The notes under the pieces: generated by a model
Told to the model about the DNA's origin: nothing
The model's input: the letters and a program-made list of their open reading frames with translations, nothing else
Database searches by the model: none
Part shown: positions 12,873 to 55,952 of the stretch, one piece after another
Layout of the letters: each line of letters begins with the position of its first letter
How positions within the stretch are numbered: position 1 is the first letter of the stretch
Source of the DNA: Flectonema sp. DT1601
Taxonomy: Eukaryota > Euglenozoa > Diplonemea > Diplonemida > Diplonemidae
NCBI GenBank assembly: GCA_964019425.1
Contig: OZ025795.1
Span: 186,001-250,000 of the forward strand
Reading direction: 5' to 3'
DNA length: 64,000 nucleotides
Translations under genes and position numbers: made by a program

Positions 12873-15800
12873 TTAAACAATAGTACGTAAGTGTTTATCC
12901 TTTAGAGCATCCTGTAGGATATCATCATCCTGTTTGTTTGATTTGGTTAGTCTGACGATAGTACTAAAGTAGGAATCAAATACAACAGAGAGACTAATGG
13001 CAAACATCTTCCGAGGTTGTCTGGACCCACAAAACATAAAGAAGGTCGTGCAGGGGATTCGACTCGGCTATCCTTCAACAACAGGCAGGCAATACGATGA
13101 ATGGAACAACGCACTCACAACAGCGGGCAACAAAAGGATGAAGACCAGACAATCAGACAGCCCGTCGTTGTTTGTCACCAGATCTGCACCCAAAGGGAGC
13201 AGGTAAGGCATCAGCTTGCAATACGACTTTCTCATCATGTGTCTGAAATTACTTCAAAGGAGATACATCAAGAGATTCTTGTACACGTGGGTGTGCGTTA
13301 ATTCCATATCCGGAAGGAACGCGACCGTATTGCGTACTTTCTAAAAAGAGATTGGGAACTTCTTCAACAACAAAAAGGATCAGCAGAGAAGCAGGAACAC
13401 GGCAGAAAAAGCAACGCTCAGACACGAAAGCTACGTCAACAAATAGCATTCAGGTGACTCACGGTCTGCAGAACTATGAGATCGGCTTTCTATCTCGTCA
13501 ATCATTCGCGTTGCTATTTTCCCCTCTTTTCCAACTCCCACAAAAACACAGAAAAGATGTCGCACACACAGAGCTCAGACAGCAGGACGGTAGTTGCAGT
13601 TTGGTTTCATGAGTAAAGGTTGGAAGCCATCAAATATTATGATAAGGTGATCATCTTCGCTCTGAATGACGACAACTCAAATCAACGAGAAGAAGAAGAA
13701 AGAACGACAAGGAAGCACGAAGTCAGCAAGTTTTAAACCTTTTTTCAAGTCACGAGAAATCAGAAGCAAGACTGGCGTTGGAAAGGTTGTGTGTGTTATC
13801 CATCATGTGAATCATGTGAAGGAAGTGAATGTTCGAAGACCAGACAATCAGACAGCCCGTCGTTGTTTGTCACCAGATCTGCACCCAAAGGGAGCAGGTA
13901 AGGCATCAGCTTGCAATACGACTTTCTCATCATGTGTCTGAAATAAATACATAAAAAGCCAGGTGTGAGGCCTCCCACAATACATAGCACAGCAAGGCTC
14001 AAATCAGACAAAGTAGTAGTAAGAAGTTATCGTCAAATATAATCCGACATATGCTTGTTATGATATGTGATCATCATATTACTTTAGACAGTCAGTTTCA
14101 GAGAAAGCAACGCTCAGACACGAAAGCTACGTCAACAAATAGCATTCAGGTGACTCACGGTCTGCAGAACTATGAGATCGGCTTTCTATCTCGTCAATCA
14201 TTCGCGTTGCTCTTTTCCCCTTTTTTCCAACTCCCACAAAACACAGAAAAGATGTCGCACACACAGAGCTCAGACAGCAGGACGGTAGTTGCAGTTTGGT
14301 TTCATGAGTAAAGGTTGGAAGCCATCAAATATTATGATAAGGTGATCATCTTCGCTCTGAATGACGACAATTCAAATCAACGAGAAGAAGAAGAAGAAGA
14401 GAGAACGACAAGGAAGCACGAAGTCAGCAAGTTTTAAACCTTTTTTCAAGTCACGAGAAATCAGAAGCAAGACTGGCGTTGGAAAGGTTGTGTGTGTTAT
14501 CCATCATGTGAATCATGTGAGAAGTGCTGGTATTCCAAATGCATGAAAGGAATCGAAAAAGAACAACGCACTCACAACAGCAGGGCAACAAAAGGATCAG
14601 CTTGAAGGCCGAAATTACTTGAAATCAATAAAAAGGATTTTCATACGAACGAGATCTATTGGGTAATTTCTATAACATCATAAAGCAACAAACAGAGTAC
14701 CAGCAGACCAGACGTCAAGGAGAAAATAAGATAACAATACATACCAACTCACTGTGATATTGAATAGTAATGAATTCTGTTGGATCATCGCATGTGTATG
14801 GTCGAGGCCGACCAAACGGACGCTCTTTACGATCTGTTATGGGCTGGGCGTTGATTGTAATAGCTGTTGATATATCCTCAAGTACAGAAGGTGGGATTGG
14901 ATTCCCAGATAGATCTAACGAAGTTAAAGTGTGATTACTTCTCAATGTAGTCTTTAAAGCCATTCCTCCTTCTTCAGTAATTTTATTATTACACAAATTT
15001 AACCTTGTAATGTATGGATTGATACGAAGAACATCAGCAAGATACGATGCTCCCTCAGAAGTAATCAAATTAGTCGACAGATCAATAGATTCTATATGTG
15101 TGTGAGTTAAGAGACTAGTACATAAGATTCGTACTGCACTATCATCAAAGTATCTCTTTCCATCCCATCTACTGTAGTCTAATGAAGTACAGCTTGGGTC
15201 ATCTGAGGTGAGTACCCTCATATCTCTCTTTAATAACACAGATTGGTTATTTATCATGAGAGCGTATTGCAATTCTTCAAGTGCGCCTTCTGAAATATTA
15301 TTATCAGAGACTGAAACTTTCCAAACTACGTCGTTAATGGCTAGGGCAGAAACCAGTGCTTTGATACCTGTTTTTTTTTTTTTTTTTTGAAACTAAGAAA
15401 GAGTAACATCGAAAAAAAAAAAAGAACAATAAATATACCCTTATCATCAAACTTGTTGTTTGAGAGAGAGAGTCCAGCGATGGTGGTATTTTCTTCTAAC
15501 ATGTCAGCAAGGTATCCAACCCCAACACTAGAAATCTCATTCCGACTTAAATCAACATCAGTAACTGTTATGTTGTCTCGCAGCGCAATTGCTAAGATTC
15601 TACAAGAGACGTCCCCATACAACTTTCTAGGACCACTAGTAGATGGTTCTTGACTAGCACTTCCACGTGACATATCAAGTGTAGTAAGTGATTCAACACT
15701 CGAATATATTGAAGGCAGTGTTCTCTTTAGAGTGAGTGGCTGACTGTTTAAAGCGATGACATCATCCAGCTGGTGGAACAGATTCTTTGCAACGTCATTT

Positions 15801-18103
15801 CCTTCAGCATTTAGAGAGACTAAAACGTCATTTACTTGAAGTGCTTCAATTAAGGCTTCTACTCCACTGTCACCTGTTTTGTTAATTGTTATTGTTGTGT
15901 GCAAATTTTTATGAAGATGAGGAAAACGAGTCATACCAATTCCATTATCGTCAAGGTTCAGTCTAACTAATGATCTATTCTGACGTATAGTTGCTGCGAG
16001 GTATTGACATCCCAGATCACCAATGGTGTTTCCAGCAATATTAAGTTCTGTTAAAGTGTTGTTATGAAGAAGGTATTCAGAGAGTGCTTTCGCGCCATCG
16101 ACTTCGAACGTGTTGTTAGATAAATCGATACTGATAATAGTCTCATTCTCTTTTAATTCATGACATAGAATGATTACAGCTGTGTCGTCGTAGTACTTAC
16201 CATCTGCTAGACTACCTAATTGTAAGTCGGTAAGTGTTGGATCTCCACCTCGTAATCGAGGAGCCATTTGTTTTAGTGACACTGGCTGTGTATTAATCGC
16301 ACAGGCAATTTGAATACTATTTTGCAATTCTTGAGAAATTTTATTTCTCCCACAAGATATCGACAACAGCGTGTTATTCACTTTCAATACCGACAACAAC
16401 GCATTTCCTCCAGCCTCAGCAATGTTATTTCCCTTAACATCGAGCTTTGTAAGAGTAGTATTGCCCTTTAAGCATTCAGACAAGGCAATTATTCCCCTGT
16501 CAGAAATGCTATTATAAGCTAGTAATAAAGTGTGAATTGATCTGTTGTCTTGCATAACGTTTGCTAAATGTCGAATACCGATATCACCGACACTGTTGTC
16601 GCTTAGATTTAGAATCTGAACCTGACTGTTAACCTGAAGAGATCTACATAAAATCATAACTGAATCATCATTGTGATATCTGGACCCGTCATACTCACTG
16701 AAGTCTAAGCGTGTTAGATTCTCTTCATTTGATTCTAATTTCGGTAACACCAATTTCAAAGCAATCGGTTGCAAATTTATAAACAAAGTGTCTTCTAAAG
16801 CGAACATCAATTGGTTACTTACCTCATTCAGTTCTAGGTTTACTGATTTTAGAGAATCATTTGTACCCAGAGACTTGATAAACTGCAACGCACCATTGTC
16901 ACCAATTTCATTATTAGCAAGATTTAAGTCAGTCAGTGAGACATTATCTTTTATTGCGATGGCAATGGCTTCTCCCCCAGCAACAGTTATGTTATTATTT
17001 GGTAGTTGAAGGCTTACAAGTACACGATTTTGTCTGATAACCGTAGCGATGTCAAGAGCACCTTCATCACGAATATGATTATTCGATAAATTTAAAGTCT
17101 GAACTGTCGTGTTTGCCCTCAGTGCAGCTGATAGAATACTTGCGGATCTTGTCATTTCTGATATGCATGAAAAATCAATTGCTTCTAATGTTGGATCGTT
17201 TGCTTGTGTTCTTTGAAGAGCTTTCTTTAATTGTAATGGCTGGCTATTTAACAACAACGCCTTCGATAACAACTCAAGTGCTCCTTGAGAAACAGCATTG
17301 TCACTTAAATCTAAATTCGTTATCTGATCATTTATTTTTAATGTTTCAACAAAAATTCGAGAAGCGTCATCACCAATCTTATTCTTCCTAAGTGTGAGGG
17401 ATACCAATGATGTATTTTTTCGTAACGCATCTCCAAGATCACGAACACCGTGTAGACCAATACCATTATTTGACAAGTTCAAGTCCGTGATAGATTCACT
17501 TTTCCTCAGTAATCCCGAGATTAATTCAGCACCTTTATCCTGTGTGCCTACATTCGCAAGTGATAATGTTGACAATTGCGTGTTGTATTTTAAAACGTCG
17601 GCAACGAGTTGACAGCTTAGATTACAACCACCGTATTGTGACAAGTCAAGTGTTGTTAAATTGGGATCGTTGTTTACCAGTTGAGGCATTGCTTGTTTTA
17701 GTGCGAGTGGTTGAGTATTAAGAAGACATTTACTGTTGATTGACTCAAGTAGTTTTGGTGATACTTGGTTCATCTCAACGTGAAGTGCTTTCAAGCTGTT
17801 GTTTATTTCAAGTATAGATTCTAACTGTTGTGCTCCTGCATCTTGCAATCGATTGTTCTCAAGATTAAGTTCTGTTAACGATCCGTTTTCTCTGAGAGCT
17901 TCAGCTAAAAACTCACCAGCAACAGCAGTTAGTTTGTTGCTTTGTAAATCTAATACTGTTAGTGTTGTGCTATGTTTCAATGCATCACAAACTTGTTGAC
18001 ATTGTAGATCATCAAGCCCTCTACTTGATAATGAAATCTCTTTGTGAGACTCGTCATTTGCGAGGATCTGCTGAATAGCTGATTCCAAACTAGTCGCAAA
18101 CAT
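12873..18103 (-). CDS. Leucine-rich-repeat protein, ribonuclease-inhibitor (NLRC-like) type
   Basis: Exons 18103-15439, 15367-14745 and 12929-12873 give 1,114 residues. The product is almost entirely RI-type LRRs (units such as LTVLDLQSNKLTAVAGEFLA), with no NACHT, kinase or membrane segment, so it is probably an intracellular scaffold. At least six linker modules of the form N-x-QP-x2-LK-x3-P-x-L... -LDxS cut the protein into blocks of about 145-165 residues. The third exon (DDDILQDALKDKHLRTIV, then TAA and AATAAA) is my inference. Its acceptor (AAACAAACAG) matches the window consensus, and the phase is 0 on both sides of a GTATGT donor at 14744. The resulting intron of about 1.8 kb encloses a complete repeat array. 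If that exon is wrong, the frame instead runs past the donor to a stop at 14715. Partner and pathway are unknown. Confidence 0.85.
12996..14681 (+). repeat. Modular repeat array 1 (inside LRR gene intron)
   Basis: Module order on the + strand: end of long B, C (about 13139-13247), D1 (to about 13405), A (to about 13819), short B (AGGAAGTGAATGTTC), C (13835-13943), D2 (to about 14103), A (to 14520), start of long B. Copies are nearly identical to those in the other four arrays. About 64 and 63 bases of ordinary intron remain on either side, so the array looks inserted into a short intron. It is antisense to the LRR gene. Confidence 0.93.
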
Positions 18104-18285
18104 TATTCTTTCAGACTTCTTCTACTAACATGAAGTGTTGATCACTAAAGGTGGGAGGGGGGGTTCAGACCTGATTTGATTTTATAAATAAAATACCGAA
18201 AACCCAAAACACAAATAACTAAACTGAATAACTCATAAATTAAATAAATTAAATCATCAGAGACAGAACCTGTGGTAAAAACAGA

Positions 18286-20278
18286 AAAGCAACGCTCAGA
18301 CACGAAAGCTACGTCAACAAATAGCATTCAGGTGACTCACGGTCTGCAGAACTATGAGATCGGCTTTCTATCTCGTCAATCATTCGCGTTGCTGTTTTTC
18401 CCCTATTTTCCAACTCCCACAAAACACAGAAAAGATGTCGCACACAGAGCTCAGACAGCAGGACGGTAGTTGCAGTTTGGTTTCATGAGTAAAGGTTGGA
18501 AGCCATCAAATATTATGATAAGGTGATCATCTTCGCTCTGAATGACGACAACTCAAATCAACGAGAAGAAGAAGAAGAAGAGAGAACGACAAGGAAGCAC
18601 GAAGTCAGCAAGTTTTAAACCTTTTTTCAAGTCACGAGAAATCAGAAGCAAGACTGGCGTTGGAAAGGTTGTGTGTGTTATCCATCATGTGAATCATGTG
18701 AGAAGCGCTGGTATTCCAAATGCATGAAAGGAATCGAAAAAGAACAACGCACTCACAACAGCAGGGCAACAAAAGGATCAGCTTGAAGGCCGAAATTACT
18801 TGAAATCAATAAAAAGGATTTTCATACGAACGAGATCTATTGGGTAATTTCTATATCATCATGAGATATTGTGGAATCAATAACAACACAGAGAGGCGGA
18901 TCTCAGGCAAAGTCAGATGAGCGAATGGCAAACATCTTCCGAGGTTGTCTGGACCCACAAAACATAAAGAAGGTCGTGCAGGGGATTCGACTCGGCTATC
19001 CTTCAACAACAGGCAGGCAATACGATGAATGGAACAACGACCTCACAACAGCGGGCAACAACAAAAGGATGAAGACCAGACAATCAGACAGCCCGTCGTT
19101 GTTTGTCACCACATCTGCACCCAAAGGGAGCAGGTAAGGCATCAGCTTGCAATACGACTTTCTCATCATGTGTCTGAAATTACTTCAAAGGAGATACATC
19201 AAGAGATTCTTGTACACGTGGGTGTGCGTTAATTCCATATCCGGAAGGAACGCGACCGTATTGCGTACTTTCTAAAAAGAGATTGGGAACTTCCTCAACA
19301 ACAAAAAGGATCAGCAGGGAAGCAGAGGAACACGGCAGAAAAAGCAACGCTCAGACACGAAAGCTACGTCAACAAATAGCATTCAGGTGACTCACGGTCT
19401 GCAGAACTATGAGATCGGCTTTCTATCTCGTCAATCATTCGCGTTGCTATTTTCCCCTTTTTTCCAACTCCCACAAAAACACAGAAAAGATGTCGCACAC
19501 ACAGAGCTCAGACAGCAGGACGGTAGTTGCAGTTTGGTTTCATGAGTAAAGGTTGGAAGCCATCAAATATTATGATAAGGTGATCATCTTCGCTCTGAAT
19601 GACGACAATTCAAATCAAAGACAGGTTCTGGAAAGGTTCTCAAATCAGACAAAGTAGTAGTAAGAAGTTATCGTCAAATATAATCCGACATATGCTTGTT
19701 ATGATATGTGATCATCATATTACTTTAGACAGTCAGTTTCAGAGAAAGCAACGCTCAGACACGAAAGCTACGTCAACAAATAGCATTCAGGTGACTCACG
19801 GTCTGCAGAACTATGAGATCGGCTTTCTATCTCGTCAATCATTCGCGTTGCTATTTTCCTCTTTTTTCCAACTCCCACAAAAACACAGAAAAGATGTCGC
19901 ACACACAGAGCTCAGACAGCAGGACGGTAGTTGCAGTTTGGTTTCATGAGTAAAGGTTGGAAGCCATCAAATATTATGATAAGGTGATCATCTTCGCTCT
20001 GAATGACGACAACTCAAATCAACGAGAAGAAGAGAGAACGACAAGGAAGCACGAAGTCAGCAAGTTTTAAACCTTTTTTCAAGTCACGAGAAATCAGAAG
20101 CAAGACTGGCGTTGGAAAGGTTGTGTGTGTTATCCATCATGTGATTCATGTGAAGGAAGTGAATGTTCGAAGACCAGACAATCAGACAGCCCGTCGTTGT
20201 TTGTCACCAGATCTGCACCCAAAGGGAGCAGGTAAGGCATCAGCTTGCAATACGACTTTGTCATCATGTGTCTGATAT
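18286..20278 (+). repeat. Modular repeat array 2 (upstream of LRR gene)
   Basis: Order: A (18286-18701), long B (18702-19070), C (19071-19180), D1 (19181-19341), A cut short near 19618, a filler of about 20 bases, then the 3' two-thirds of D2 (about 19640-19743), A (to about 20152), short B, and C ending near 20278. The cut-A to partial-D2 junction is unique in the window and looks like a deletion repaired with filler. The array lies about 180 bases before the LRR start codon. Confidence 0.93.
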
Positions 20279-20344
20279 AAGTCAATTTAAAGAACTGTGA
20301 GTGTACATAACTAATGACATAAATATAAACAAAGGCTAACCAAA

Positions 20345-20587: not shown

Positions 20588-20746
20588 CAACCCCGTCACA
20601 CGTTACGTTTACAGAATCTTCTGATCATTTTACTCTTTCACTGAAAACTGTTAAAAAGAATAAAATTAAAATAATAAAAGGGAAATTGGCTTTAACTTAG
20701 TTTAAAAAAATAAAGTTAAATGACAAACAAGAATCGATTCAGCACT

Positions 20747-21258: not shown

Positions 21259-23686
21259 TGAGGCCTCCCACAATACATAGCACAGCAAGGCTCAAATCAG
21301 ACAAAGTAGTAGTAAGAAGTTATCGTCAAATATAATCCGACATATGCTTGTTATGATATGTGATCATCATATTACTTTAGACAGTCAGTTTCAGAGAAAG
21401 CAACGCTCAGACACGAAAGCTACGTCAACAAATAGCATTCAGGTGACTCACGGTCTGCAGAACTATGAGATCGGCTTTCTATCTCGTCAATCATTCGCGT
21501 TGCTGCTTTTCCCCTTTTTTTCCAACTCCCACAAAAACACAGAAAAGATGTCGCACACACAGAGCTCAGACAGCAGGACGGTAGTTGCAGTTTGGTTTCA
21601 TGAGTAAAGGTTGGAAGCCATCAAATATTATGATAAGGTGATCATCTTCGCTCTGAATGACGACAACTCAAATCAACGACAAGAAGAAGAAGTGAGAACG
21701 ACAAGGAAGCACGAAGTCAGCAAGTTTTAAACCTTTTTTCAAGTCACGAGAAATCAGAAGCAAGACTGGCGTTGGAAAGGTTGTGTGTGTTATCCATCAT
21801 GTGAATCATGTGAGAAGTGCAGGTATTTCAAATGCATGAAAGGAATCGAAAAAGAACAACGCACCCACAACAGCAGGGCAACAAAAGGATCAGCTTGAAG
21901 GCCGAAATTACTTGAAATCAATAAAAAGGATTTTCATACGAACGAGATCTATTGGGTAATTTCTATATCATCATGAGATATTGTGGAATCAATAACAACA
22001 CAGAGAGGCGGATCTCAGGTGAGTCAGATGAGCGAATGGCAAACATCTTCCGAGGTTGTCTGGACCCACAAAACATAAAGAAGGTCGTGCAGGGGATTCG
22101 ACTCGGCTATCCTTCAACAACAGGCAGGCAATACGATGAATGGAACAACGACCTCACAACAGCGGGCAGCAACAAAAGGATGAAGACCAGACAATCAGAC
22201 AGCCCGTCGTTGTTTGTCACCAGATCTGCACCCAAAGGGAGCAGGTAAGGCATCAGCTTGCAATACGACTTTGTCATCACGTGTCTGAAATAAATACATG
22301 AAATCCAGGTGTGAGGCCCCCCACAAATCATAGCACAGCAAGGCTCAAGTCAGACAAAGTAGTAGTAAGAAGTTATCGTCAAATATAATCCGACATATGC
22401 TTGTTATGATATGTGATCATCATATTACTTTAGACAGTCAGTTTCAGAGAAAGCAACGCTCAGACACGAAAGCTACGTCAACAAATAGCATTCAGGTGAC
22501 TCACGGTCTGCAGAACTATGAGATCGGCTTTCTATCTCGTCAATCATTCGCGTTGCTGTTTTTCCCCTATTTTCCAACTCCCACAAAACACAGAAAAGAT
22601 GTCGCACACGCAGAGCTCAGACAGCAGGACGGTAGTTGCAGTTTGGTTTCATGAGTAAAGGTTGGAAGCCATCAAATATTATGATAAGGTGATCATCTTC
22701 GCTCTGAATGACGACAACTCAAATCAACGAGAAGAAGAAGAGAGAACGACAAGGAAGCACGAAGTCAGCAAGTTTTAAACCTTTTTTCAAGTCACGAGAA
22801 ATCAGAAGCAAGACTGGCGTTGGAAAGGTTGTGTGTGTTATCCATCATGTGATTCATGTGAGAAGCGCTGGTATTCCAAATGCATGAAAGGAATCGAAAA
22901 AGAACAACGCACTCACAACAGCAGGGCAACAAAAGGATCAGCTTGAAGGCCGAAATTACTTGAAATCAATAAAAAGGATTTTCATACGAACGAGATCTAT
23001 TGGGTAATTTCTATATCATCATGAGATATTGTGGAATCAATAACAACACAGAGAGGCGGATCTCAGGCAAAAGTCAGATGAGCGAATGGCAAACATCTTC
23101 CGAGGTTGTCTGGACCCACAAAACATAAAGAAGGTCGTGCAGGGGATTCGACTCGGCTATCCTTCAACAACAGGCAGGCAATAAGATGAATGGAACAACG
23201 ACCTCACAACAGCGGGCAACAAAAGGATGAAGACCAGACAATCAGACAGCCCGTCGTTGTTTGTCACCAGATCTGCACCCAAAGGGAGCAGGTAAGGCAT
23301 CAGCTTGCAATACGACTTTCTCATCATGTGTCTGAAATTACTTCAAAGGAGATACATCAAGAGATTCTTGTATACGTGGGTGTGCGTTAATTCCATATCC
23401 GGAAGGAACGCGACCGTATTGCGTACTTTCTAAAAAGAGATTGGGAACTTCCTCTACAACACACAAAAAGGATCAGCAGGGAAGCAGGAACACGGCAGAA
23501 AAAGCAACGCTCAGACACGAAAGCTACGTCAACAAATAGCATTCAGGTGACTCACGGTCTGCAGAACTATGAGATCGGCTTTCTATCTCGTCAATCATTC
23601 GCGTTGCTGTTTTTCCCCTTTTTTTTCCAACTCCCACAAAACACAGAAAAGATGTCGCACACAGAGCTCAGACAGCAGGACGGTAG
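21259..23686 (+). repeat. Modular repeat array 3
   Basis: Order: 3' part of D2 (from 21259), A (about 21399-21815), long B, C (about 22185-22290), D2 (to about 22447), A (to 22861), long B, C (about 23230-23337), D1 (to about 23498), and A cut short at 23686. It contains two full cycles. One long-B copy holds a 98-codon open frame (21952-22248) that other copies do not keep open to the same length. Confidence 0.93.
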
Positions 23687-25087: not shown

Positions 25088-28000
25088 CTATTGGTGGCTG
25101 TCGCCACCGAGTCCCCCAAACTCTCGCTCAACAACACCGTCACACATTCCTTCTATAAGTTGTTCCATTTCCCTTCCGCTATCAATGAGAACGTTTTGTA
25201 GTATTGCGTCAGTTATTTTATTGACAAAAGGGGCCGGACATTTGTTAGCATGTTGCCACATTGTATATTCTGAATTATAATTTTGAATTGAGTCAGCTGA
25301 CGCAGCTGAGAGACGCTTTGGAGCAGCAGTAAGAAGAACCTTCTCAACAGTCTGCTGAGAGTTTCCCTTGGGAATTAACTCTGGCGGGATGTCAAGCGGA
25401 AGAGGTTTCGGAACTCTCGGAATTGAAGACAACGGCAACTGATGAGCTGATTCGGAAGTACTTTGCGGAGGAGCAATAAAAATTGCTGGCATCGTTACTG
25501 AGGGTGGTGATGGTGGTTTCTGTGGTCTCGGTGGGGTCAAATCTGGCATCTCTTTTTTAAGTATTTTACTTTCAAAGTTATTATTACTTTCAACAGGTTT
25601 ATCAACAGAAGACTTCTTTTTGAGAATCTGCTCCATTTCCTTACTTGTTCTATTCCATAACATTGCAGCATCCTGATCCATTTGACGTACTTTCTGTTTG
25701 TTGTAATAATAAAATAATGTCGTCAGTTTTATTAAAAACTCAACTGAGTAACAAGACATACCTGTAAAACTGTTTCTATGTGACTGTTGTATTCCCTAAC
25801 ATTTCTAAATATCTGACTGTCACCTGACGTTGCGGAATACGCAGTCTGTTTGTTATATTTGTTTACTTCTTCAAAAAGTAGGCAACGTATAAAGCAAGGT
25901 ATCAGAAAAGCTTAAAAGACTTCTTAGAAACTCTCGAACACGTGGGTGTGCGTTAATTCCATATCCGGAAGGAACGCGACCGTATTGCGTACTTTCTAAA
26001 AAGAGATTGGGAACTTCCTCTACAACAAAAATGATCAGCAGGGAAGCAGGAACACGGCAGAAAAAGCAACGCTCAGACACGAAAGCTACGTCAACAAATA
26101 GCATTCAGGTGACTCACGGTCTGCAGAACTATGAGATCGGCTTTCTATCTCGTCAATCATTCGCGTTGCTATTTTCCCCTTTTTTCCAACTCCCACAAAA
26201 ACACAGAAAAGATGTCGCACACACAGAGCTCAGACAGCAGGACGGTAGTTGCAGTTTGGTTTCATGAGTAAAGGTTGGAAGCCATCAAATATTATGATAA
26301 GGTGATCATCTTCGCTCTGAATGACGACAACTCAAATCAACGAGAAGAAGACGAAGAAGAGAGAACGACAAGGAAGCACGAAGTCAGCAAGTTTTAAACC
26401 TTTTTTCAAGTCACGAGAAATCAGAAGCAAGACTGGCGTTGGAAAGGTTGTGTGTGTTATCCATCATGTGAATCATGTGAGAAGTGCAGGTATTTCAAAT
26501 GCATGAAAGGAATCGAAAAAGAACAACGCACTCACAACAGCAGGGCAACAAAAGGATCAGCTTGAAGGCCGAAATTACTTGAAATCAATAAAAAGGATTT
26601 TCATACGAACGAGATCTATTGGGTAATTTCTATATCATCATGAGATATTGTGGAATCAATAACAACACAGAGAGGCGGATCTCAGGCAAAGTCAGATGAG
26701 CGAACGGCAAACATCTTCCGAGGTTGTCTGGACCCACAAAACATAAAGAAGGTCGTGCAGGGGATTCGACTCGGCTATCCTTCAACAACAGGCAGGCAAT
26801 ACGATGAATGGAACAACGACCTCACAACAGCGGGCAACAAAAGGATGAAGACCAGACAATCAGACAGCCCGTCGTTGTTTGTCACCAGATCTGCACCCAA
26901 AGGGAGCAGGTAAGGCATCAGCTTGCAATACGACTTTTTCATCACGTGTCTGAAATAAATACATAAAAAGCCAGGTGTGAGGCCCCCCACAAATCATAGC
27001 ACAGCAAGGCTCAAGTCAGACAAAGTAGTAGTAAGAAGTTATCGTCAAATATAATCCGACATATGCTTGTTATGATATGTGATCATCATATTACTTTAGA
27101 CAGTCAGTTTCAGAGAAAGCAACGCTCAGACACGAAAGCTACGTCAACAAATAGCATTCAGGTGACTCACGGTCTGCAGAACTATGAGATCGGCTTTCTA
27201 TCTCGTCAATCATTCGCGTTGCTATTTTCCCCTTTTTTCCAACTCCCACAAAACACAGAAAGATGTCGCACACACAGAGCTCAGACAGCAGGACGGTAGT
27301 TGCAGTTTGGTTTCATGAGTAAAGGTTGGAAGCCATCAAATATTATGATAAGGTGATCATCTTCGCTCTGAATGACGACAACTCAAATCAACGAGAAGAA
27401 GAAGAGAGAACGACAAGGAAGCACGAAGTCAGCAAGTTTTAAACCTTTTTTCAAGTCACGAGAAATCAGAAGCAAGACTGGCGTTGGAAAGGTTGTGTGT
27501 GTTATCCATCATGTGAATCATGTGAGAAGTGCTGGTATTCCAAATGCATGAAAGGAATCGAAAAAGAACAACGCACTCACAACAGCAGGGCAACAAAAGG
27601 ATCAGCTTGAAGGCCGAAATTACTTGAAATCAATAAAAAGAATTTTCATACGAACGAGATCTATTGGGTAATTTCTATATCATCATGAGATATTGTGGAA
27701 TCAATAACAACACAGAGAGGCGGATCTCAGGCAAAGTCAGATGAGCGAATGGCAAACATCTTCCGAGGTTGTCTGGACCCACAAAACATAAAGAAGGTCG
27801 TGCAGGGGATTCGACTCGGCTATCCTTCAACAACAGGCAGGCAATAAGATGAATGGAACAACGACCTCACAACAGCGGGCAACAAAGGATGAAGACCAGA
27901 CAATCAGACAGCCCGTCGTTGTTTGTCACCAGATCTGCACCCAAAGGGAGCAGGTAAGGCATCAGCTTGCAATACGACTTTCTCATCATGTGTCTGAAAT

Positions 28001-30423
28001 TACTTCAAAGGAGATACATCAAGAGATTCTTGTACACGTGGGTGTGCGTTAATTCCATATCCGGAAGGAACGCGACCGTATTGCGTACTTTCTAAAAAGA
28101 AATTGGGAACTTACTTAACAAAAAGGATCAGCAGGGAAGCAGAGGAACACTGTAGTAAAAGCAACGCTCAGACACGAAAGCTACGTCAACAAATAGCATT
28201 CAGGTGACTCACGGTCTGCAGAACTATGAGATCGGCTTTCTATCTCGTCAATCATTCGCGTTGCTATTTTCCTCCTTTTTTCCAACTCCCACAAAAACAC
28301 AGAAAAGATGTCGCACACACAGAGCTCAGACAGCAGGACGGTAGTTGCAGTTTGGTTTCATGAGTAAAGGTTGGAAGCCATCAAATATTATGATAAGGTG
28401 ATCATCTTCGCTCTGAATGACGACAATTCAAATCAACGAGAAGAAGAAGAGAGAACGACAAGGAAGCACGAAGTCAGCAAGTTTTAAACCTTTTTTCAAG
28501 TCACGAGAAATCAGAAGCAAGACTGGCGTTGGAAAGGTTGTGTTTGTTATCCATCATATAACGCGGGGAATGCACGACAGAAAACGGGAACTTTTTGTGA
28601 TTACACTTTAACTAATTAAAACAGAAATATAATCATACCTCTGTTGTGATTTCATCTTCATCTGTATGAGCATCTGAAACTGAAGATGATTGAAATGGTT
28701 TATTACTAAAAGATTGCTGTGTGTCAATAGGATAAAGAGGTGAAGTAGAAACACAAGCGTATTCCGGACTACGAGAATTAAGTTCATGTGCCAGAGGACT
28801 AGTTGCCATATTTACTTGTGTGAGGTTTGAGACGATCGGAGAAGTAGAAGTTTCCTGAAGTTGTTTCTTTTTAGGAACAAAGAACTCTGCGAGGTTAGAA
28901 ACAATCTGAGGAACAGGAACAGGTGTGTTTCTATTCGATGCTCGACCTGATCCATACTTCTTTGTGAATTGTCCTGGAAGTGTTCCTCTCCTCTTTCCAT
29001 TTGTTGAACTCCATTTTGAAGCTTTCGCTAACACCTTCTGTCCTTTTGGTTCCTTTTGTCCCGGACTTCCGCTTCGGCTTCTACTCCTATCTGGTGATCG
29101 TTCCTTCGAACGTTTTGCTTTCTCTGCTCTCGCCATTTCGCTTGCTTCCTTTTCTTCTTCTTGCTTTGCTTTTTCAGCTAATTTCCGAAGCATGGAAATG
29201 TTGTTTTGGATATCCTCATGAACCTTCCTCGTAATTGGAGATTGGTCACCGTCCTCTTGTCGAGGAGGGGGAACAAAATCAGAAGGCAGCGGCAATTGCT
29301 GCTGCTGTTCGGGAGTAAGAGAATGGAATATGAGCTCTAGCTGTTGGCGAACCAATTGAGGAGACGGAGCAGGGCTACCCGGAGTTGTATTCTTAAGAGT
29401 TTGTAAAACCTGCTGTGGAGATAGAGAAGGAGACTGGGCAGCCTGTTGAGGTTGTTGCTGTTGTCGTATAAATTGCTGTTGCTGTTCTTGAATCTTTTGC
29501 AGCTGCAGTTGTAAATCCTGTAATTGTTGCTGCTGAATACGACCATCGTGTTGTTGCTGTTGTTGCTGTTGTTGGTAAGGTTGCTGCTGTTGTTGCTGTT
29601 GGTGATGTTGCTGCTGAGTTTGTTGTTGCTGCTGCGACGACTGCGGTTGCTGTTGAGTTTGTTGTTGCTCACCAGAATAAGGAGCTGCAAGCCCAATTCC
29701 TGTCTGTTGTGGGTAAGTACTACTCCCACTAGCTACTTGATGTTGAGGAGTAGCTGACTGTGAAGCCATAAAAGTATTAGAAATTCTACTTTCAGTCTGC
29801 TTTGGATGTTTCTGTTGAAGAAGTGAAGCTCTGGTTGGTCTACTAAGTCTTTGATACAGAGGAGGATCCATTGGCTGCCTCCTTCCCATCCCACCACCAA
29901 TTCCTGGGATCTTCCCACCAGCTACAGCTTTTGATACTTTCCCTCTCATATAATTTGGAAGGTGAGTATGAGTATTTACCTTTCTGTGGTTGTTCAGAAC
30001 AGTGTTCAAACCATAAGTAGAGATGCATTGCTCAACATCAAGACGGGCTATTTCCTGCACAGTTTGCATGTATTTAAGACGCTGTAGAAGTTGGTTACCT
30101 GAGAGTCCTAATTGTTCGTACTGCTCGTAGGTGACGTTTGGGGTTTCAGGCTGTTGCTGTGGCTGCGTAGGTTGCTGTTGCTGCTGTGGCGACGGTGGCT
30201 GTTGCTGCATCGGTGGTTGCTGCTGTTGTTGCCGTGGTTGTGGTTGCAATGAAGGCGGAGGTTGAAGAGGAGAACTATCAGCTACAGGCGAGGGATTTAC
30301 TGCCGGACTTGGTGCAGCATCTCGGGCCTGACTCTGACTATTGCTAACTACCGTTTCATTAGGCGACTCGATCCTACCCGTCGAATCCCCACCGGCCTCA
30401 CTGTAACTGCTACTGGAGCTCAT
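25088..30423 (-). CDS. Gln/Pro-rich protein of unknown function
   Basis: Exons 30423-28639, 25845-25762 and 25693-25088 join at phase 0 and give 824 residues. Donors are GTATGA and GTATGT; acceptors are AACAAACAG. GTATGA is also used by the phosphatase gene at 63153, which supports it. Residues 1-110 are Ser-, Pro- and Gln-rich. A compact segment follows (YEQLGLSGNQLLQRLKYMQT). Long Gln tracts fill about 220-330, a charged Lys/Glu/Ser region about 390-480, and the C-terminal third has a possible coiled coil (MEQILKKK) and Pro-rich stretches before a conserved-looking end (WQHANKCPAPFVNKITDAIL). Gln-rich scaffolds of this kind are common in transcription and RNA proteins, but no family was recognised. 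The first intron is 2.8 kb and contains repeat array 4. Confidence 0.75.
25938..28557 (+). repeat. Modular repeat array 4 (inside Q-rich gene intron)
   Basis: Order: 3' part of D1 (from 25938), A (about 26064-26480), long B, C (about 26847-26954), D2 (to about 27115), A (to 27532), long B, C (about 27890-28000), D1 (to about 28158), and A cut at 28557. The flanking intron stubs are 92 and 81 bases, about the size of a normal intron. The array runs antisense to the gene. Module order is the same as in array 3 apart from the entry point. Confidence 0.93.
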
Positions 30424-36449: not shown

Positions 36450-36480
<31 letters not shown>

Positions 36481-48066: not shown

Positions 48067-51000
48067 TCAACGAATGCGACGTCCACTCTTTACCGCCACT
48101 GTTCTTGTACGGACGCTTGGAGCACCTCCGGTAAAGGTGAAAGGTCTGTTTTGATATTATTCTTTTTTTTTTGAATAAGAATTTTCCAGTCGCTGACTAT
48201 AAGAAGGAAAATACATACCCTGCTGCCTCTCCAGGAGATGCGCTACCTCCTCCCCCTCCAAAATTAAAACTCGTCGTCGGTGTGTCGGAAGGATTTCCTG
48301 TTTGGTTTAGTCAGCTGTATGACTAGGTACTCCGAGGCAAAGAATTAAAAAGGATATCAGATCTCCCTACATTATTGAGAACACGACAACTATCAAAAGA
48401 GCTGAACATGCCCTTCTGATGCAGGTCACACAGTTTACTGATCAAAGAATCTCGCGTACTTGGGAGACCCCAAACCCATTGGCTATCATTAGGGCACATG
48501 TGGGGGACTATGAAGACACGCTGAACCATAACAAAGCATCAGATCTCCCTACATTATTGAGAACACGACAACTATCAAAAGAGCTGAACATGCCCTTCTG
48601 ATGCAGGTCACACAGCTAACCGATCAAAGAATCTCGCGTACTTGGGAGACCCCAAACCCATTGGCTATCATTAGGGCACATGTGGGGGACTATGAAGACA
48701 CGCTATAAAATAAAACAGTTAAGTAAATATAATTATAATAACATACCAAAGGAAAATGGAGCTGGAGGAGTATTTACTTGAGCGGCTGGCATTGTGAATG
48801 CGGATCCACTTGCGGGTGGAATAGGTGGAGGAGCGAAAGCTCCAGGCGTCCCACCAAAAGCAACTGTTTGAGTATCAGCAGCAGCAGCAGGCGCACTAAA
48901 TGCACCAAAAGGTGTTGCAGCAGCAGTATCGCTTCCAGTGGTGGCGAATGCATTCGCAAACGGTGTCGCTGGTTTTGCTTCGCTAGAGAAAGCACCGAAT
49001 GCCCCAGAAAATGCCGGAGCTGCCTTAGGTTCTTCTTTTTGTTCCTCCACGGCAGCTGGAGCAGGAGCAGCAGCAGCAGGAGTTCCGAACCCTCCAAAAC
49101 CTCCAAACGGCTTGTTTTCCTTTTTATCTTCTGCTGCTGGGAAGGATAAACCTAATAATGGTTTTGCTTCTCCATCAGCAGGTTTGGATTCTGTAGCAGG
49201 AGTTCCAAACCCACCAAATAATTTGCTGTTGTCAGTTTTTGGTTCAGTTGCATCACTCGAGGAACCACCGAAAGCACCAAAGGCACTACCAAATGGGCTG
49301 GGCTGCGATTTAAAGTCGGTACCAAAAGCTCCAAAGGAAGTAGCAGCAGATGATGAAGCTGCTTCCATCGATGGCTTTGACTCTTCAGTCTTTGATCCAA
49401 GTGCCCCAAAACTAAATCCAGAAAAGACGCTGGCTTCAGCTGGTTTCTTCTCATCGTCATCAGATACACTTCCCGCGTTGCTCGCAAAACCATCCTCGAA
49501 GTCAATTTCAACTGGTGCCGCACTTGGTGCTCCAAAAGCCTTGAACCCACCTAGTGGAGCGAGTGCAGGTGCAGCCTCTGCTGGCTTTGGGGTTGCTGGT
49601 TTTTCGACAGTATCTTTTTCCTGTGCTTTTACAAATCCGAATCCTTCTGATGGAGTTACAACTGGTTTGTCCTTTGCAATATCACCAAACGAGCTGATTG
49701 GCGGAACATCATTCAAAGGTTTGTCGTTATTCTTAAACGAAAACGCACTCTGCCCTTCAGGGACGGCGGCACCGAATCCTAAGAATGGTGCTGCTACAGG
49801 TTTGTCTTCTTCGTCATCGTCGTCTGTTTGTTTTCTCTTTACTTTCTCTTTTACAATCTTTTCAGGCTCCTTTGAGCTTAAGGCAGCAAAGGCATCAAAC
49901 CCACTGCTTTCAGGCTTTTTGACTTCAGCACTCTCTGCTGGCGCCCCGAATCCAGCAAACCCGGTAGTCGGTTTACTCTCGGCATCGGTTCCGAATCCTG
50001 CGAATCCGGAGACTTCAGCTGGCTTGTCGTCGGTAGTGGTGGTAGTAGTAGTGGTGCCGAAGCCTGCGAATCCGGTGACCTCCTTAGGCTTTTCCGTCTC
50101 GGAATCCGTTGCGAAGGCTCCGAATGCGCCGAAGCCGCTGTCTTTTGGCTTTTCCTTTTCAGCATCCGTATCAAATCCTCCGAAGGCAGACTTTTCTGCT
50201 GGTTTGGTCGGTTCGAATCCAGAGAAAGCTGATTCTTTTGGTGCTGAGTCGGTTGTTCCGAAACCAGAGAACCCAACGGACTCCTTTGGTTTCTCTTGCT
50301 CAACATCTGAAGTTAGGGAAAAGCCAGTTTCCTTTGGCTTATCTTTGTCACTGTTCGTTGTTGTTGTACCAAAACCGACAAAAGTCTCTGTAGGATTATC
50401 GGATATCTCTTCGGTTGTTCCAAATGCAGCTGTTGACTCAGCAGCACCAAAGAAGCTTCCGATTGGCTTATCAGATTCTACGACTACGTCAGTTGTTTTA
50501 TTGTCATTGAAGGTACTGACCTCTGTAACTGTTTCACGAGTAGCTTCAGAATTACTGTTACCAGACATGTTAAGAGTTTTAAGGTCTTCCTTACGGCGTT
50601 TAATCGACTGAGACGCAGCTAACAAGTTCGATCTTGGCTTTGGTGTTGGAGGAGCTAAGAATGAAGCTGGTGAAGCAAATCTTTTTAAATAACCCATAAC
50701 AACATCGCTTCTCTCATAGACGTTTGGTGATGATACAATATAAACTGAACCGTCGCAGGTTTTACCTCTCTTTTGAGCTGCGGGTTGGATTTCACGGGAG
50801 CGTTTTATTTGTTCTTGGAGACGGTTAATTTGAGTGTCTTTCTCCTGAATGATTTTAAGCGCTAGCTCCAGTTGACGTTTTTCACGTATTCTTTCTCTTT
50901 TAATCTCGTCAGTATCTTGACGAAGGCGGTCGATTTCAGCTGATAGCTGACCAGCCTTGGAAGATTCGTTCCACGGCGCTGCCATCTGATGAGAGGAATT

Positions 51001-51177
51001 TTCATACGATGCGAACTGTGGCAGTCTTGAAGTCTGTGCTGGACCGTCAAACCCGTTGTCATATGTCTTTCTGGTTTCATCCTCTCTCCTTATCGATGCA
51101 GGCTTCTCCTCACTTGTTTTCCCTACGATGCCATTTAATATTTTGCTCAGGAATCCCTGCTCGCCGGAATCACCCAT
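48067..51177 (-). CDS. FG-repeat nucleoporin (Nup1/Nup60/Nup153-like)
   Basis: Exons 51177-48747, 48297-48219 and 48145-48067 give 862 residues. Donors are GTATGT and acceptors AACAG; phases match (1, then 2). The N-terminus MGDSGEQGFLSKILNGIVG can form an amphipathic helix. A coiled coil follows at about 75-130 (SAEIDRLRQDTDEIKRERIR). From about 240 to the end there are dense FG repeats (GFGTT, AFGAF, GFAGFG) separated by Lys/Glu/Pro/Ser linkers. The last exon gives PFTFTGGAPSVRTRTVAVKS and ends GRRIR, a basic tail like those of nuclear-basket nucleoporins that bind importins. By analogy it should anchor at the nuclear basket and bind transport receptors. The first intron, 449 bases, contains a 182-bp tandem duplication. 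Confidence 0.82.
48356..48704 (+). repeat. 182-bp tandem duplication inside nucleoporin intron 1
   Basis: Two cores of 167 bp (48356-48522 and 48538-48704) are separated by a 15-bp spacer. They differ at only about three bases (TTTACTG versus CTAACCG), so the duplication is recent. On the + strand each core is open for about 54 codons in one frame (YIIENTTTIKRAEHALLMQ, then VTQFTDQRISRTW, then IIRAHVGDYEDTL). The period is not a multiple of three, so the two copies are in different frames. No family was recognised. Confidence 0.9.
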
Positions 51178-51247
51178 AACTGCGTTCCTGACTTAAAGAA
51201 TGAATTAAATATTGATGTCAAGGCGTATTAAATTGTCTTACAGTAAT

Positions 51248-51463
51248 TCAATCTCCTAACAAGTAATCATATTGTATAGTGTGATGGGGTGAATAAATGA
51301 TAATTAAACAAACAGAAACAACAATACCGATAAACGTGGCATACAGATCCTTAGATAGTATTGGCACCAAAGCCAAAAAAAAGAAGACACCAAAACTCTC
51401 ACAACTAATGAGTAAAGGTTTGACACATTCGTTTATTTGGAAAAACAATGCAATCCAATTCAT
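51248..51463 (-). CDS. Small membrane protein ORF
   Basis: 71 codons from ATG to TGA, with two likely membrane segments (FGVFFFLALVPIL and FIGIVVSVCLIIIY) joined by a short polar loop. The layout recalls small ER membrane subunits, but no motif identifies one. It lies between two minus-strand genes in the same orientation. It could be chance in AT-rich DNA, although codon composition is not low-complexity. Confidence 0.35.
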   Translation of the reverse strand: MNWIALFFQINECVKPLLISCESFGVFFFLALVPILSKDLYATFIGIVVSVCLIIIYSPHHTIQYDYLLGD

Positions 51464-51785
51464 GTTTTGAATGAGTTTCTCTTTTTTTTTTTTTCATTAT
51501 CTTCATAACTGCCGACCTGTCAGGAGTTCGGATCGATATGTGATTCTTTTTTCTTTCGAATTCGTAGTTCTATTGGAACAGAGAGTTCGAAGGACACCTT
51601 GTTACAAAGCTGCTAATACTTGAGTAGAGATTACTGTTTCTCTTCTTCGTTGCTCGCTTCGCTACATGATCACTTGTTACTTGTTGGATGTTTTCATGAC
51701 AGATGCATTTACAATTTCTTTTTTGTTGTTGTTGCTGAAAACTGTTTATTCTTTTCCACCTTTTCTCGTTAACTGCTTCTCCTCA

Positions 51786-52304
51786 TCACTTTCCAGAACC
51801 TCCCAACATGTCGTCAAAGGCATCGTCAGCCGCGTCTTCTTCCTCGGCCTCTTCTACTTCTGCGGCAGCACGATCGAGAATTGCGTTCTCTTCAGCGTCC
51901 ATGCGCTCTTGTTCACCACCTGCTTCGGTATCAATTCTGATTTGATGTTAAATTATTATTTTTCTTTATTTTTCACGGCTAAAATGAGAACTAAAATAAT
52001 ACCTGTCGTTCATCCCGGCAAACATGCATAATTCTGCCAAGTGTTCCAGCGCTTCGTCTTCGTAGTCAGATGGAGGGTCCTCGTAATTACCAAATTCCTT
52101 TGTTGCTTCTTTTGTTCCAGCTTCAACCTTTGAGTCTTCTTCTTCTTCTTCATCCTCTTCTACTTCTTCAATTTCTTCTTCCTCCTCGCTCTCTTCGATT
52201 TCCTCAACTTCCTCCTCTTCCGCGTCATCGTCAGCTTCCGCTGCCTTAGCGTCTAACTTTGTCTCCTCCAACTTCTTTGCCAACTCATCGACTTTCTCAG
52301 TCAT
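51786..52304 (-). CDS. Very acidic small protein
   Basis: Exons 52304-52003 and 51936-51786. The donor is GTATTA, the acceptor CAAATCAG, and a codon is split at the junction. They give about 150 residues. A short coiled-coil start (MTEKVDELAKKLEETKLDAK) leads into long Glu/Asp runs, a middle motif (DEALEHLAELCMFAGMNDR) and a second acidic stretch ending FDDMLGGSGK. Such acidic proteins often bind histones or basic ribosomal proteins, but no family was recognised. Reading through the intron would end after HFSREK. Confidence 0.65.
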
Positions 52305-52454
52305 CTTATGCTGCGATGATAGCTGCGAGGAATATCAAACACTAATAAATCACAAAAGTTTGTGACATAATCTAAAACAACTAATAGACGGTTCCTAAAC
52401 GTGAGCTAGTCGCAGGAAAGATACTAAAATAATAGCACACAGTTTACCTGAAAA

Positions 52455-55400
52455 GAGAATCGAAACTTCCTCAATCATAACAAGATCAGCAGGGAAGCAG
52501 AGGAACACGGCAGAAAAGCAACGCTCAGACACGAAAGCTACGTCAACAAATAGCATTCAGGTGACTCACGGTCTGCAGAACTATGAGATCGGCTTCCTAT
52601 CTCGTCAATCATTCGCGTTGCTATTTTCCCCTTTTTTCCAACTCCCACAAAAACACAGAAAAGATGTCGCACACACAGAGCTCAGACAGCAGGACGGTAG
52701 TTGCAGTTTGGTTTCATGAGTAAAGGTTGGAAGCCATCAAATATTATGATAAGGTGATCATCTTCGCTCTGAATGACGAATTCAAATCAACGACAAGAAG
52801 AAGAAGAAGAGAGAATGACAAGGAAACACGAAGTCAGCAAGTTTTAAACCTTTTTTCAAGTCACGAGAAATCAGAAGCAAGACTGGCGTTGGAAAGGTTG
52901 TGTGTGTTATCCATCATGTGAATCATGTGAGAAGTGCTGGTATTCCAAATGCATGAAAGGAATCGAAAAAGAACAACGACCTCACAACAGCAGGGCAACA
53001 AAAGGATCAGCTTGAAGGCCGAAATTACTTGAAATCAATAAAAAGGATTTTCATACGAACGAGATCTATTGGGTAATTTCTATATCATCATGAGATATTG
53101 TGGAATCAATAACAACACAGAGAGGCGGATCTCAGGCAAAAGTCAGATGAGCGAATGGCAAACATCTTCCGAGGTTGTCTGGACCCACAAAACATAAAGA
53201 AGGTCGTGCAGGGGATTCGACTCGGCTATCCTTCAACAACAGGCAGGCAATACGATGAATGGAACAACGACCTCACAACAGCGGGCAACAAAAGGATGAA
53301 GACCAGACAATCAGACAGCCCGTCGTTGTTTGTCACCAGATCTGCACCCAAAGGGAGCAGGTAAGGCATCAGCTTGCAATACGACTTTTTCATCATGTGT
53401 CTGAAATTACTTCAAAGGAGATACATCAAGAGATTCTTGTACACGTGGGTGTGCGTTAATTCCATATCCGGAAGGAACGCGACCGTATTGCGTACTTTCT
53501 AAAAAGAGATTGGGAACTTCTTCAACAACAAAAAGAATCAGCAGGGAAGCAGAGGAACACGGCAGACAAAGCAACGCTCAGACACGAAAGCTACGTCAAC
53601 AAATAGCATTCAGGTGACTCACGGTCTGCAGAACTATGAGATCGGCTTTCTATCTCGTCAATCATTCGCGTTGCTATTTTCCTCTTTTTTTCCAACTCCC
53701 ACAAAAACACAGAAAAGATGTCGCACACACAGAGCTCAGACAGCAGGACGGTAGTTGCAGTTTGGTTTCATGAGTAAAGGTTGGAAGCCATCAAATATTA
53801 TGATAAGGTGATCATCTTCGCTCTGAATGACGACGATTCAAATCAACGAGAAGAAGAAGAAGAGAGAACGACAAGGAAGCACGACGTCAGCAAGTTTTAA
53901 ACCTTTTTTCAAGTCACGAGAAATCAGAAGCAAGACTGGCGTTGGAAAGGTTGTGTGTGTTATCCATCATGTGAATCATGTGAAGGAAGTGAATGTTCGA
54001 AGACCAGACAATCAGACAGCCCGTCGTTGTTTGTCACCAGATCTGCACCCAAAGGAGCAGGTAAGGCATCAGCTTGCAATACGACTTTGTCATCACGTGT
54101 CTGAAATAAATACATAAAAAGCCAGGTGTGAGGCCTCCCACAATACATAGCACAGCAAGGCTCAAGTCAGACAAAGTAGTAGTAAGAAGTTATCGTCAAA
54201 TATAATCCGACATATGCTTGTTATGATATGTGATCATCATATTACTTTAGACAGTCAGTTTCAGAGAAAGCAACGCTCAGACACGAAAGCTACGTCAACA
54301 AATAGCATTCAGGTGACTCACGGTCTGCAGAACTATGAGATCGGCTTTCTATCTCGTCAATCATTCGCGTTGCTGTTTTTCCCCTATTTTCCAACTCTCA
54401 CAAAACACAGAAAAGATGTCGCACACAGAGCTCAGACAGCAGGACGGTAGTTGCAGTTTGGTTTCATGAGTAAAGGTTGGAAGCCATCAAATATTATGAT
54501 AAGGTGATCATCTTCGCTCTGAATGACGACAACTCAAATCAACGAGAAGAAGAAGAAGAAGAAGAAGAGAGAACGACAAGGAAGCACGAAGTCAGCAAGT
54601 TTTAAACCTTTTTTCAAGTCACGAGAAATCAGAAGCAAGACTGGCGTTGGAAAGGTTGTGTGTGTTATCCATCATGTGATTCATGTGAAGGAAGTGAATG
54701 TTCGAAGACCAGACAATCAGACAGCCCGTCGTTGTTTGTCACCAGATCTGCACCCAAAGGAGCAGGTAAGGCATCAGCTTGCAATACGACTTTGTCATCA
54801 CGTGTCTGAAATAAATACATAAAAAGCCAGGTGTGAGGCCTCCCACAATACATAGCACAGCAAGGCTCAAGTCAGACAAAGTAGTAGTAAGAAGTTATCG
54901 TCAAATATAATCCGACATATGCTTGTTATGATATGTGATCATCATATTACTTTAGACAGTCAGTTTCAGAGAAAGCAACGCTCAGACACGAAAGCTACGT
55001 CAACAAATAGCATTCAGGTGACTCACGGTCTGCAGAACTATGAGATCGGCTTTCTATCTCGTCAATCATTCGCATTGCTATTTTCCTCCTTTTTTCCAAC
55101 TCCCACAAAAACACAGAAAAGATGTCGCACACAGAGCTCAGACAGCAGGACGGTAGTTGCAGTTTGGTTTCATGAGTAAAGGTTGGAAGCCATCAAATAT
55201 TATGATAAGGTGATCATCTTCGCTCTGAATGACGACGATTCAAATCAACGAGAAGAAGAAGAAGAAGAGAGAACGACAAGGAAGCACGAAGTCAGCAAGT
55301 TTTAAACCTTTTTTCAAGTCACGAGAAATCAGAAGCAAGACTGGCGTTGGAAAGGTTGTGTGTGTTATCCATCATGTGAATCATGTAAAGGAAGTGAATG

Positions 55401-55952
55401 TTCGAAGACCAGACAATCAGACAGCCCGTCGTTGTTTGTCACCAGATCTGCACCCAAAGGGAGCAGGTAAGGCATCAGCTTGCAATACGACTTTCTCATC
55501 ATGTGCCTGAAATTACTTCAAAAGGAGATACATCAAGAGATTCTTGTACACGTGGGTGTGCGTTAATTCCATATCCGGAAGGAACGCGACCGTATTGCGT
55601 ACTTTCTAAAAAGAGATTGGGAACTTCCTCAACAACAAAAAGGATCAGCAGGGAAGCAGGAACACGGCAGAAAAAGCAACGCTCAGACACGAAAGCTACG
55701 TCAACAAATAGCATTCAGGTGACTCACGGTCTGCAGAACTATGAGATCGGCTTTCTATCTCGTCAATCATTCGCGTTGCTATTTTCCCCTTTTTTCCAAC
55801 TCCCACAAAACACAGAAAAGATGTCGCACACACAGAGCTCAGACAGCAGGACGGTAGTTGCAGTTTGGTTTCATGAGTAAAGGTTGGAAGCCATCAAATA
55901 TTATGATAAGGTGATCATCTTCGCTCTGAATGACAACAACTCAAATCAACGA
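52455..55952 (+). repeat. Modular repeat array 5 (longest)
   Basis: Order: end of D1, A (about 52517-52930), long B, C (about 53298-53406), D1 (to about 53569), A (to 53985), short B, C, D2 (to about 54265), A (to 54690), short B, C, D2 (to about 54970), A (to 55388), short B, C, D1 (to about 55676), and A cut at 55952. Five A copies occur here, and short and long B and both D types are mixed in one array. The + strand frame 55398-55880 is open for 160 codons across C, D1 and A, the longest in any array. The array lies between the acidic-protein gene and the SPFH gene. Confidence 0.93.

Follow-up and report, generated by a model that had tools for sequence, protein, structure and literature searches.

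The window analysed here, positions 186001-250000 of contig C16 (64,000 nucleotides; the genome measures 89.5 Mb in 92 contigs), contains five tandem arrays built from a small set of modules that carry putative small nucleolar RNA (snoRNA) genes. Mapping the modules by BLAST over C16:86001-350000 (264 kb) revealed 11 arrays on this contig, which share one orientation, extend over about 208 kb (114712-322545), measure 1.2-5.2 kb each and sum to 28,750 bp. A sequence-only reading of the window had proposed five arrays with modules in the circular order A-B-C-D, and module BLAST recovers them in this order and at the same places (Table 1). Module A is about 425 bp long and module C 110 bp; slot B holds either 7 bp (short B) or about 361 bp (long B), and slot D holds either D1 (153 bp) or D2 (154 bp). 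Both slots come in two real forms, as that reading had recognised, and the two D forms are similar in length and unrelated in sequence, with no mutual BLAST match. Most module copies match one another at 95-100% identity over stretches of about 100-425 bp, which excludes a chance origin of the repeats.

All four combinations of B and D occur in the window (long-D1 five times, short-D2 three, long-D2 two and short-D1 one). They had been reported to coexist even within the array at 52448-55952, which in fact holds three of them; long-D2 sits in the arrays at 21259 and 25926. Likewise, the sixteen A copies counted earlier are sixteen A segments, 12 whole and four cut (starting at 19336, 23496, 28154 and 55668). 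The genome-wide unit search and B/D count that the same reading had suggested place all 11 arrays on C16, with 14 long-D1, six short-D2, three short-D1 and two long-D2 units. In most units, long B accompanies D1 or short B accompanies D2 (Fisher p 0.0099, with units treated as independent), the association that recombination between two main unit forms would produce. Genome searches with all modules found none outside the C16 region except for a piece of long B, 107 bp in length, on contig C25, the match counts being lower bounds.

On the minus strand, module A carries three box C/D snoRNA-like genes (A1, A2 and A3), modules C, D2 and long B carry one each, and D1 carries a candidate single-hairpin H/ACA-like RNA. 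What appears to be a satellite is in this sense a collection of 177 snoRNA-like gene copies in one region, 77 of them in the window, with copies counted over the same 264 kb. The box C/D types show a C box (RUGAUGA) near the 5' end and CUGA near the 3' end of the transcribed strand. The C box is perfect in D2, in long B and in 25 of the 27 copies of gene C, where it begins with G instead of A in nine of the 27, the RTGATGA pattern being kept; CTGA is present in each type. A terminal stem of 6 bp is found in A2 and in one of four A1 copies, and the stems of C and A3 are longer (Table 1).

Table 1. Module arrays and predicted RNA genes in the window (window coordinates; modules of arrays given in plus-strand order; base ranges within a module in brackets; gene copies counted over C16:86001-350000)
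Feature	Position	Strand	Details
Array: partial long B, C, D1, A, C, D2, A, partial long B	12996..14681	-	module BLAST
Array: A longB C D1 A[1-286] D2[54-154] A C	18285..20278	-	module BLAST
Array: D2[22-154] A longB C D2 A longB C D1 A[1-191]	21259..23686	-	module BLAST
Array: D1[22-153] A longB C D2 A longB C D1 A[2-404]	25926..28557	-	module BLAST
Array: D1[92-153] A longB C D1 A C D2 A C D2 A C D1 A[1-286]	52448..55952	-	module BLAST
Third form, 404-bp unit A[1-286] + 17 bp + D2[54-154]	19336..19739	-	keeps A3, A2 and D2 whole; without A1 and C
snoRNA-like gene A1 (box C/D)	27429..27512	-	C box 6/7, D' and D boxes; 28 copies (27 identical), 13 in window
snoRNA-like gene A2 (box C/D)	27281..27360	-	C box 6/7; 34 copies (33 identical), 15 in window
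snoRNA-like gene A3 (box C/D)	27126..27213	-	C box 5/7, terminal stem 8-10 bp; 36 copies (34 identical), 16 in window
snoRNA-like gene C (box C/D)	27904..27989	-	perfect C box, D', D, 7-bp terminal stem; 27 copies (12 identical), 12 in window
snoRNA-like gene D2 (box C/D), SNORD27-like guide	27016..27089	-	15 copies, all identical, 7 in window
snoRNA-like gene in long B (box C/D)	22938..23022	-	weak terminal stem; 18 copies (15 identical), 7 in window
D1 single-hairpin H/ACA-like RNA	28028..28089	-	pocket and ACAAGA tail; 19 copies (17 identical), 7 in window

The H/ACA-like candidate in D1 is seen in a 68-nt piece of a nearly invariant block, in which the stems GUACGC/GUGUAC and GCGUU/AACGC enclose an internal pocket, followed by the tail ACAAGA. 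Its single hairpin folds at -20.1 kcal/mol, compared with -12.4 kcal/mol (s.d. 2.5) for shuffled sequences, and none of 300 shuffles was as low, for a piece that was picked by eye. On this reading, D1 and D2 would be two genes of different classes in the same slot, and their near-equal length looks like a coincidence. The arrays combine several predicted genes of both classes, repeated and on the strand of the surrounding gene cluster, as in repeated snoRNA clusters of euglenozoans, with D1 as the sole H/ACA-like member. The second half of long B (window 23030-23228) is an almost invariant block without clear marks of either a C/D or an H/ACA RNA.

Four of the predicted C/D RNAs have guide stretches for which we assume putative targets. 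The D2 guide ACAAGCATATG would presumably pair with CATATGCTTGT in 18S ribosomal RNA (rRNA), and the gene C guide AACAACGACGGGC with GCCCGTCGTTGTTT at the 18S 3' end. In the large-subunit rRNA, we take the stretch ACAGCAGGACGGT to be the presumed target of the A2 guide ACCGTCCTGCTGT, and a stretch like AAGCA-GACTGGC to be that of the A1 guide AACGCCAGTCTTGCTT.

A scan that scores the C box, CTGA and the terminal stem under one scheme for all sequence returned 103 matches on the minus strand and none on the plus strand within the 11 arrays, versus 61 on each strand in the 235,250 bp outside them. The minus strand is also that of the protein genes: of the 76 non-overlapping open reading frames (ORFs) that reach 200 aa within the 264 kb around the arrays, 75 lie on it, and the arrays are located between protein genes of this one-way cluster.

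Rfam searches at relaxed thresholds point to the same class of RNA. Within a 721-bp segment comprising C, D2 and A, all eight matches are to box C/D snoRNA families, lie on the minus strand and fall on predicted genes (four on D2, two on A1, one each on A2 and C, none on A3); one 721-bp control gave two matches, both to microRNA families and neither to a snoRNA. For the whole unit, all seven matches are to snoRNA or small Cajal body-specific RNA families on the minus strand. A first relaxed search of 15.8 kb had produced 15 matches, 12 of them to C/D snoRNAs, all on D2 and on the minus strand, and the other three to unrelated families. Gene C is matched weakly by snoZ157 over the full model length in the copy at 26852-26953.

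D2 resembles SNORD27 (RF00086) at 31 bits and an E value of 0.0029, where the gathering score is 52, so that we refer to D2 as SNORD27-like and not as a member of the family. D2 aligns to model positions 1-71, including the C box and the guide ACAAGCAUAUG before a D'-like box; unlike SNORD27, however, its D' reads CGGA, and the 3' D box of the model is left unmatched, with a three-base deletion there. A1 has its guide and D-type box in common with DdR13 (RF01563) at 18 of 19 bases and aligns to snoZ223 (RF00135) over the full model length, again sharing guide and box. It differs from both in scoring below the gathering thresholds, and the box stands at D' in A1 but at the 3' end of the model in DdR13.

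One cassette recurs away from C16. The 107-bp piece of long B, which spans its predicted RNA, is found at 93-94% identity in otherwise unrelated arrays on C25, and reads ATGATGA ... CTGA on the gene strand at both loci. All 13 ORFs of at least 200 aa in 50 kb around the C25 locus lie on the strand of the shared piece. These arrays (C25:817810-832388) have mixed periods of 143, 315, 584 and 630 bp and share this one snoRNA cassette with the arrays of the window; an Rfam search of them gave no match up to an E value of 2. A 70-bp piece of the C25 arrays recurs in turn at 83-84% identity on C52:263-290 kb.

Comparison of module copies further revealed where the repeats vary. The alignments left out 14 of 41 A, 2 of 20 D1 and 1 of 28 C segments. 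Among 27 whole copies of A, variation affects two of 252 positions within the three predicted RNAs versus 53 of 176 outside them, and two of 427 circular shifts of the gene positions are equally low. In D2, none of the 74 positions inside the RNA varies, whereas 15 of 80 do so outside it in eight full copies (shifts equally low: 22 of 153) and 3 of 59 in seven shorter copies (56 of 132). The long-B RNA varies at 3 of 85 positions, versus 44 of 276 outside (70 of 360 shifts as low). Pooled without the shorter D2 copies, 13 of 497 positions vary inside predicted RNAs and 116 of 556 outside (Fisher p 9e-22, for copies that share ancestry and may exchange sequence). Contrasting near-constant with drifting bases in a tandem repeat offers a cheap way to small-RNA genes that Rfam misses.

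A composite satellite of one region, centromere-like or simple and devoid of gene function, whose shuffling is ordinary unequal crossing over, would also be tandem and multi-form, confined to C16:114712-322545 and mixed between arrays. It is nevertheless highly improbable, since the variation in A avoids the predicted RNAs, where a satellite should show no constraint tied to gene features, since box C/D signals are confined to one strand, and since the relaxed Rfam matches on the unit are all to snoRNAs; moreover, one cassette recurs alone in the unrelated C25 arrays, and the arrays are short and placed between genes. On strand bias, constancy and Rfam matches, we reject a simple or centromeric satellite. 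The sequence-only reading had likewise set a simple satellite aside, but it missed what the modules are, namely carriers of one or more snoRNA-like minus-strand genes each. A hidden common monomer, suggested by unit lengths of about 350, 700 and 1050, was dropped once the cassettes were read as genes.

Junctions between modules were counted where both alignments reach the module ends, with D1 and long-B matches below 45 bp left out. The gap is 2 bp in all 15 A-long B junctions, 7 bp in 10 of 11 A-C junctions, and 0 in all 16 long B-C, 17 of 18 C-D1, all six C-D2 and all 14 D2-A junctions; D1-A junctions have a gap of 0 in 11 cases and of 1 in 7 of 18. Most junctions therefore recur to the exact base across copies, in keeping with the fixed joining points described earlier and not with joints that vary by copy. 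The recurrent joins fall in linkers and, in module coordinates, leave the predicted RNAs whole, so that the fixed joints are linkers between predicted snoRNA genes. Array ends sometimes do cut a predicted gene, as in A[1-191] and C[51-110].

A third recurrent form had been overlooked. In it, A is cut at base 286 and followed by 17 bp and by D2 from base 54 (five times) or 55 (once); it occurs in six of the 11 arrays, one of them in the window. The earlier proposal of two recombining parent forms is accordingly borne out in part: exchange among unit forms fits the data, but two forms are too few, as the third join recurs six times. Copies of A differ by a mean of 18.2 positions within an array and 18.1 between arrays (27 whole of 41 segments), and 1095 of 2000 label shuffles are as low as the within-array mean, so that copies do not cluster by array. 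The flanks of the 11 arrays (600 bp on each side, same strand) do not match one another, the single match being one and the same stretch of DNA lying between two neighbouring arrays. Together, the lack of clustering by array and of shared flanks suggests that cassettes are exchanged or copied throughout the 208 kb. A site-specific process is unnecessary here: no array flanks match each other over 600 bp, and identical joins do not call for one, because a single join, once made and copied, looks identical everywhere.

Eleven dispersed arrays with differing ends and no common flanks within 600 bp on either side might also be left by a non-autonomous mobile element that spreads tandemly via template switching. 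This has an even smaller chance of being correct than a satellite: all 11 arrays lie in one orientation, and apart from the 107-bp cassette nothing was detected outside the 208-kb region, in searches whose counts are lower bounds. Furthermore, the window's arrays contain a single ORF of at least 120 aa, at 55398-55880 on the plus strand (160 aa), and a Pfam search gave no match for it; as it also lies on the strand opposite the snoRNAs, a protein-coding repeat was rejected as well. Mis-joining of similar units during assembly is just as remote, since identical joins turn up in arrays whose unique flanks differ, and those that recur keep to the snoRNA boundaries.

We conclude, with a probability of roughly 93%, that the arrays are repeated snoRNA gene clusters set between the protein genes of a polycistronic euglenozoan gene cluster, as judged from their sequence. 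A minus-strand transcript of the gene cluster would run through the arrays together with the neighbouring genes and would be cut into guides, namely three C/D RNAs from A, one each from C, D2 and long B, and one H/ACA-like RNA from D1. Gene cassettes would be shuffled over about 208 kb as arrays exchange sequence unequally and are copied into one another. Selection, rather than conversion tracts, would hold most of the RNAs constant while linkers drift, and we propose that for this reason the joins that spread are those that fall between genes.

Several observations weigh against this conclusion. No Rfam match in the window reaches the gathering score, and the SNORD27 match to D2 stops before the CTGA that we assign as its D box. 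The 103 scan matches are related copies of a few types and not independent. The terminal stems of D2 and long B are too weak for the stem scan, D2 being called by its boxes and Rfam; A1 passes the scan in one of four copies (two arrays listed), because its stem extends into the variable linker; A3 has a C box of 5/7 and no Rfam match; and in two of the 27 gene C copies the C box is altered to GTTATGA. In D1, the lowest-energy fold of the whole 153 nt keeps the upper stem and loses the outer stem of the eye-picked 68-nt piece. The circular-shift control is not strong for D2, its shorter copies or long B, and module C does not show the constancy at all, with 8 of 86 positions varying inside the RNA versus 4 of 24 outside and 67 of 109 shifts as low. 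Single, non-recurrent joins in arrays 8, 10 and 11, outside the window, leave incomplete pieces of A. Finally, the scan of the C25 arrays gave 0 matches on the plus strand, that of the shared RNA, and 12 on the minus strand, of another sequence; as the expected strand gave none, only the shared piece speaks for a C/D reading there.

The snoRNA clusters might, beyond this, form a modular cassette library, in which whole snoRNA genes are swapped at fixed linker joins, arrays differ in guide sets and doses, and a cassette, for instance the long-B RNA, can pass from one cluster to an unrelated one on another chromosome. We regard this extension as rather doubtful; if it were true, array make-up would be a changeable dial for rRNA modification.

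Repeated, mixed and polycistronic snoRNA clusters are established in trypanosomatids, and the arrays therefore represent a known kind of cluster. In trypanosomes, snoRNA genes are clustered, combine C/D and H/ACA-like RNAs, are cut from polycistronic transcripts and lie in clusters that are usually repeated several times (PMC2613932); cluster repeats in trypanosomatids are also described in PMC3091756, and two long-read Trypanosoma cruzi assemblies contain 1561 and 1024 snoRNA genes (PMC5994713). The predicted clusters here resemble those of T. brucei, Leishmania and Leptomonas in being repeated and in mixing C/D with single-hairpin H/ACA-like RNAs, the shape described for trypanosome H/ACA-like RNAs being that predicted for the D1 piece (PMC2613932). 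In contrast to the trypanosomatid clusters as described there, the C16 locus comprises 11 short arrays, spread over 208 kb, in which alternative cassettes take fixed places and even a single array may hold several shuffled unit forms, although one T. brucei cluster does have a partial tandem repeat (PMC2613932). In Euglena gracilis, modification-guide snoRNA genes are likewise reported to be often clustered, and U3 genes are multi-copy, in a source concerned mainly with U3 and U5 (PMC2784804).

For a known cluster type, the cassette layout is unusually clear, and the layout together with the host group may be what is new. The section on structural RNA genes in the Diplonema papillatum genome paper (section 10) covers rRNA, transfer RNA, small nuclear RNA and spliced leader (SL) RNA genes and no snoRNAs, and the term 'small nucleolar' does not occur in its main text, supplements being outside this scope (PMC10161547). 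We found no description of diplonemid snoRNAs among the papers listed from one open-access collection, again outside supplements. If the host is a diplonemid, the arrays may thus offer a first view of diplonemid snoRNA clusters.

Among other features of the window, two long ORFs at 3263-12499 (2361 and 688 aa) have EGF/teneurin- or jagged-like matches, clear for the first and weak for the second, and a 920-aa leucine-rich-repeat ORF (15341-18103) adjoins them. A 182-bp tandem repeat in two copies (48356-48718) has relatives at C16:118-119 kb, at 171-176 kb and on C31, where the family mixes periods of 98, 287 and 385 bp and shows one weak C/D match; single weaker matches lie on C42 and C54. 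As a snoRNA this repeat was rejected, with no C/D match on either strand, no Rfam match in the longer family array, and a fold (-46.0) no better than shuffled sequence (-46.6, s.d. 4.0). It is possibly another small-RNA cluster.

A query for the spliced-leader 3' motif matched the genome 733 times with at most one mismatch, and its reversed control 0 times. At the end of C16 (C16:1439001-1441000), spliced-leader and 5S rRNA genes alternate in 623-bp tandem units, and a further 610-bp array of matches lies on C20. A published table of spliced leaders has an entry 'Euglenozoa 14' that we take to come from Diplonema. The leader found here, AACCAACGATTCTAAAGCTACAGTTTCTGTACTTTATTG, is two bases off that entry (PMC3795323). 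The spliced-leader genes thus point to a euglenozoan host, probably a diplonemid. Four isolated leader copies on C1 and C2 (L034-L037) lack SL-RNA intron sequence behind them, and in three (L035-L037) an ATG lies nearby downstream; they look like retroposed copies of trans-spliced mRNAs.

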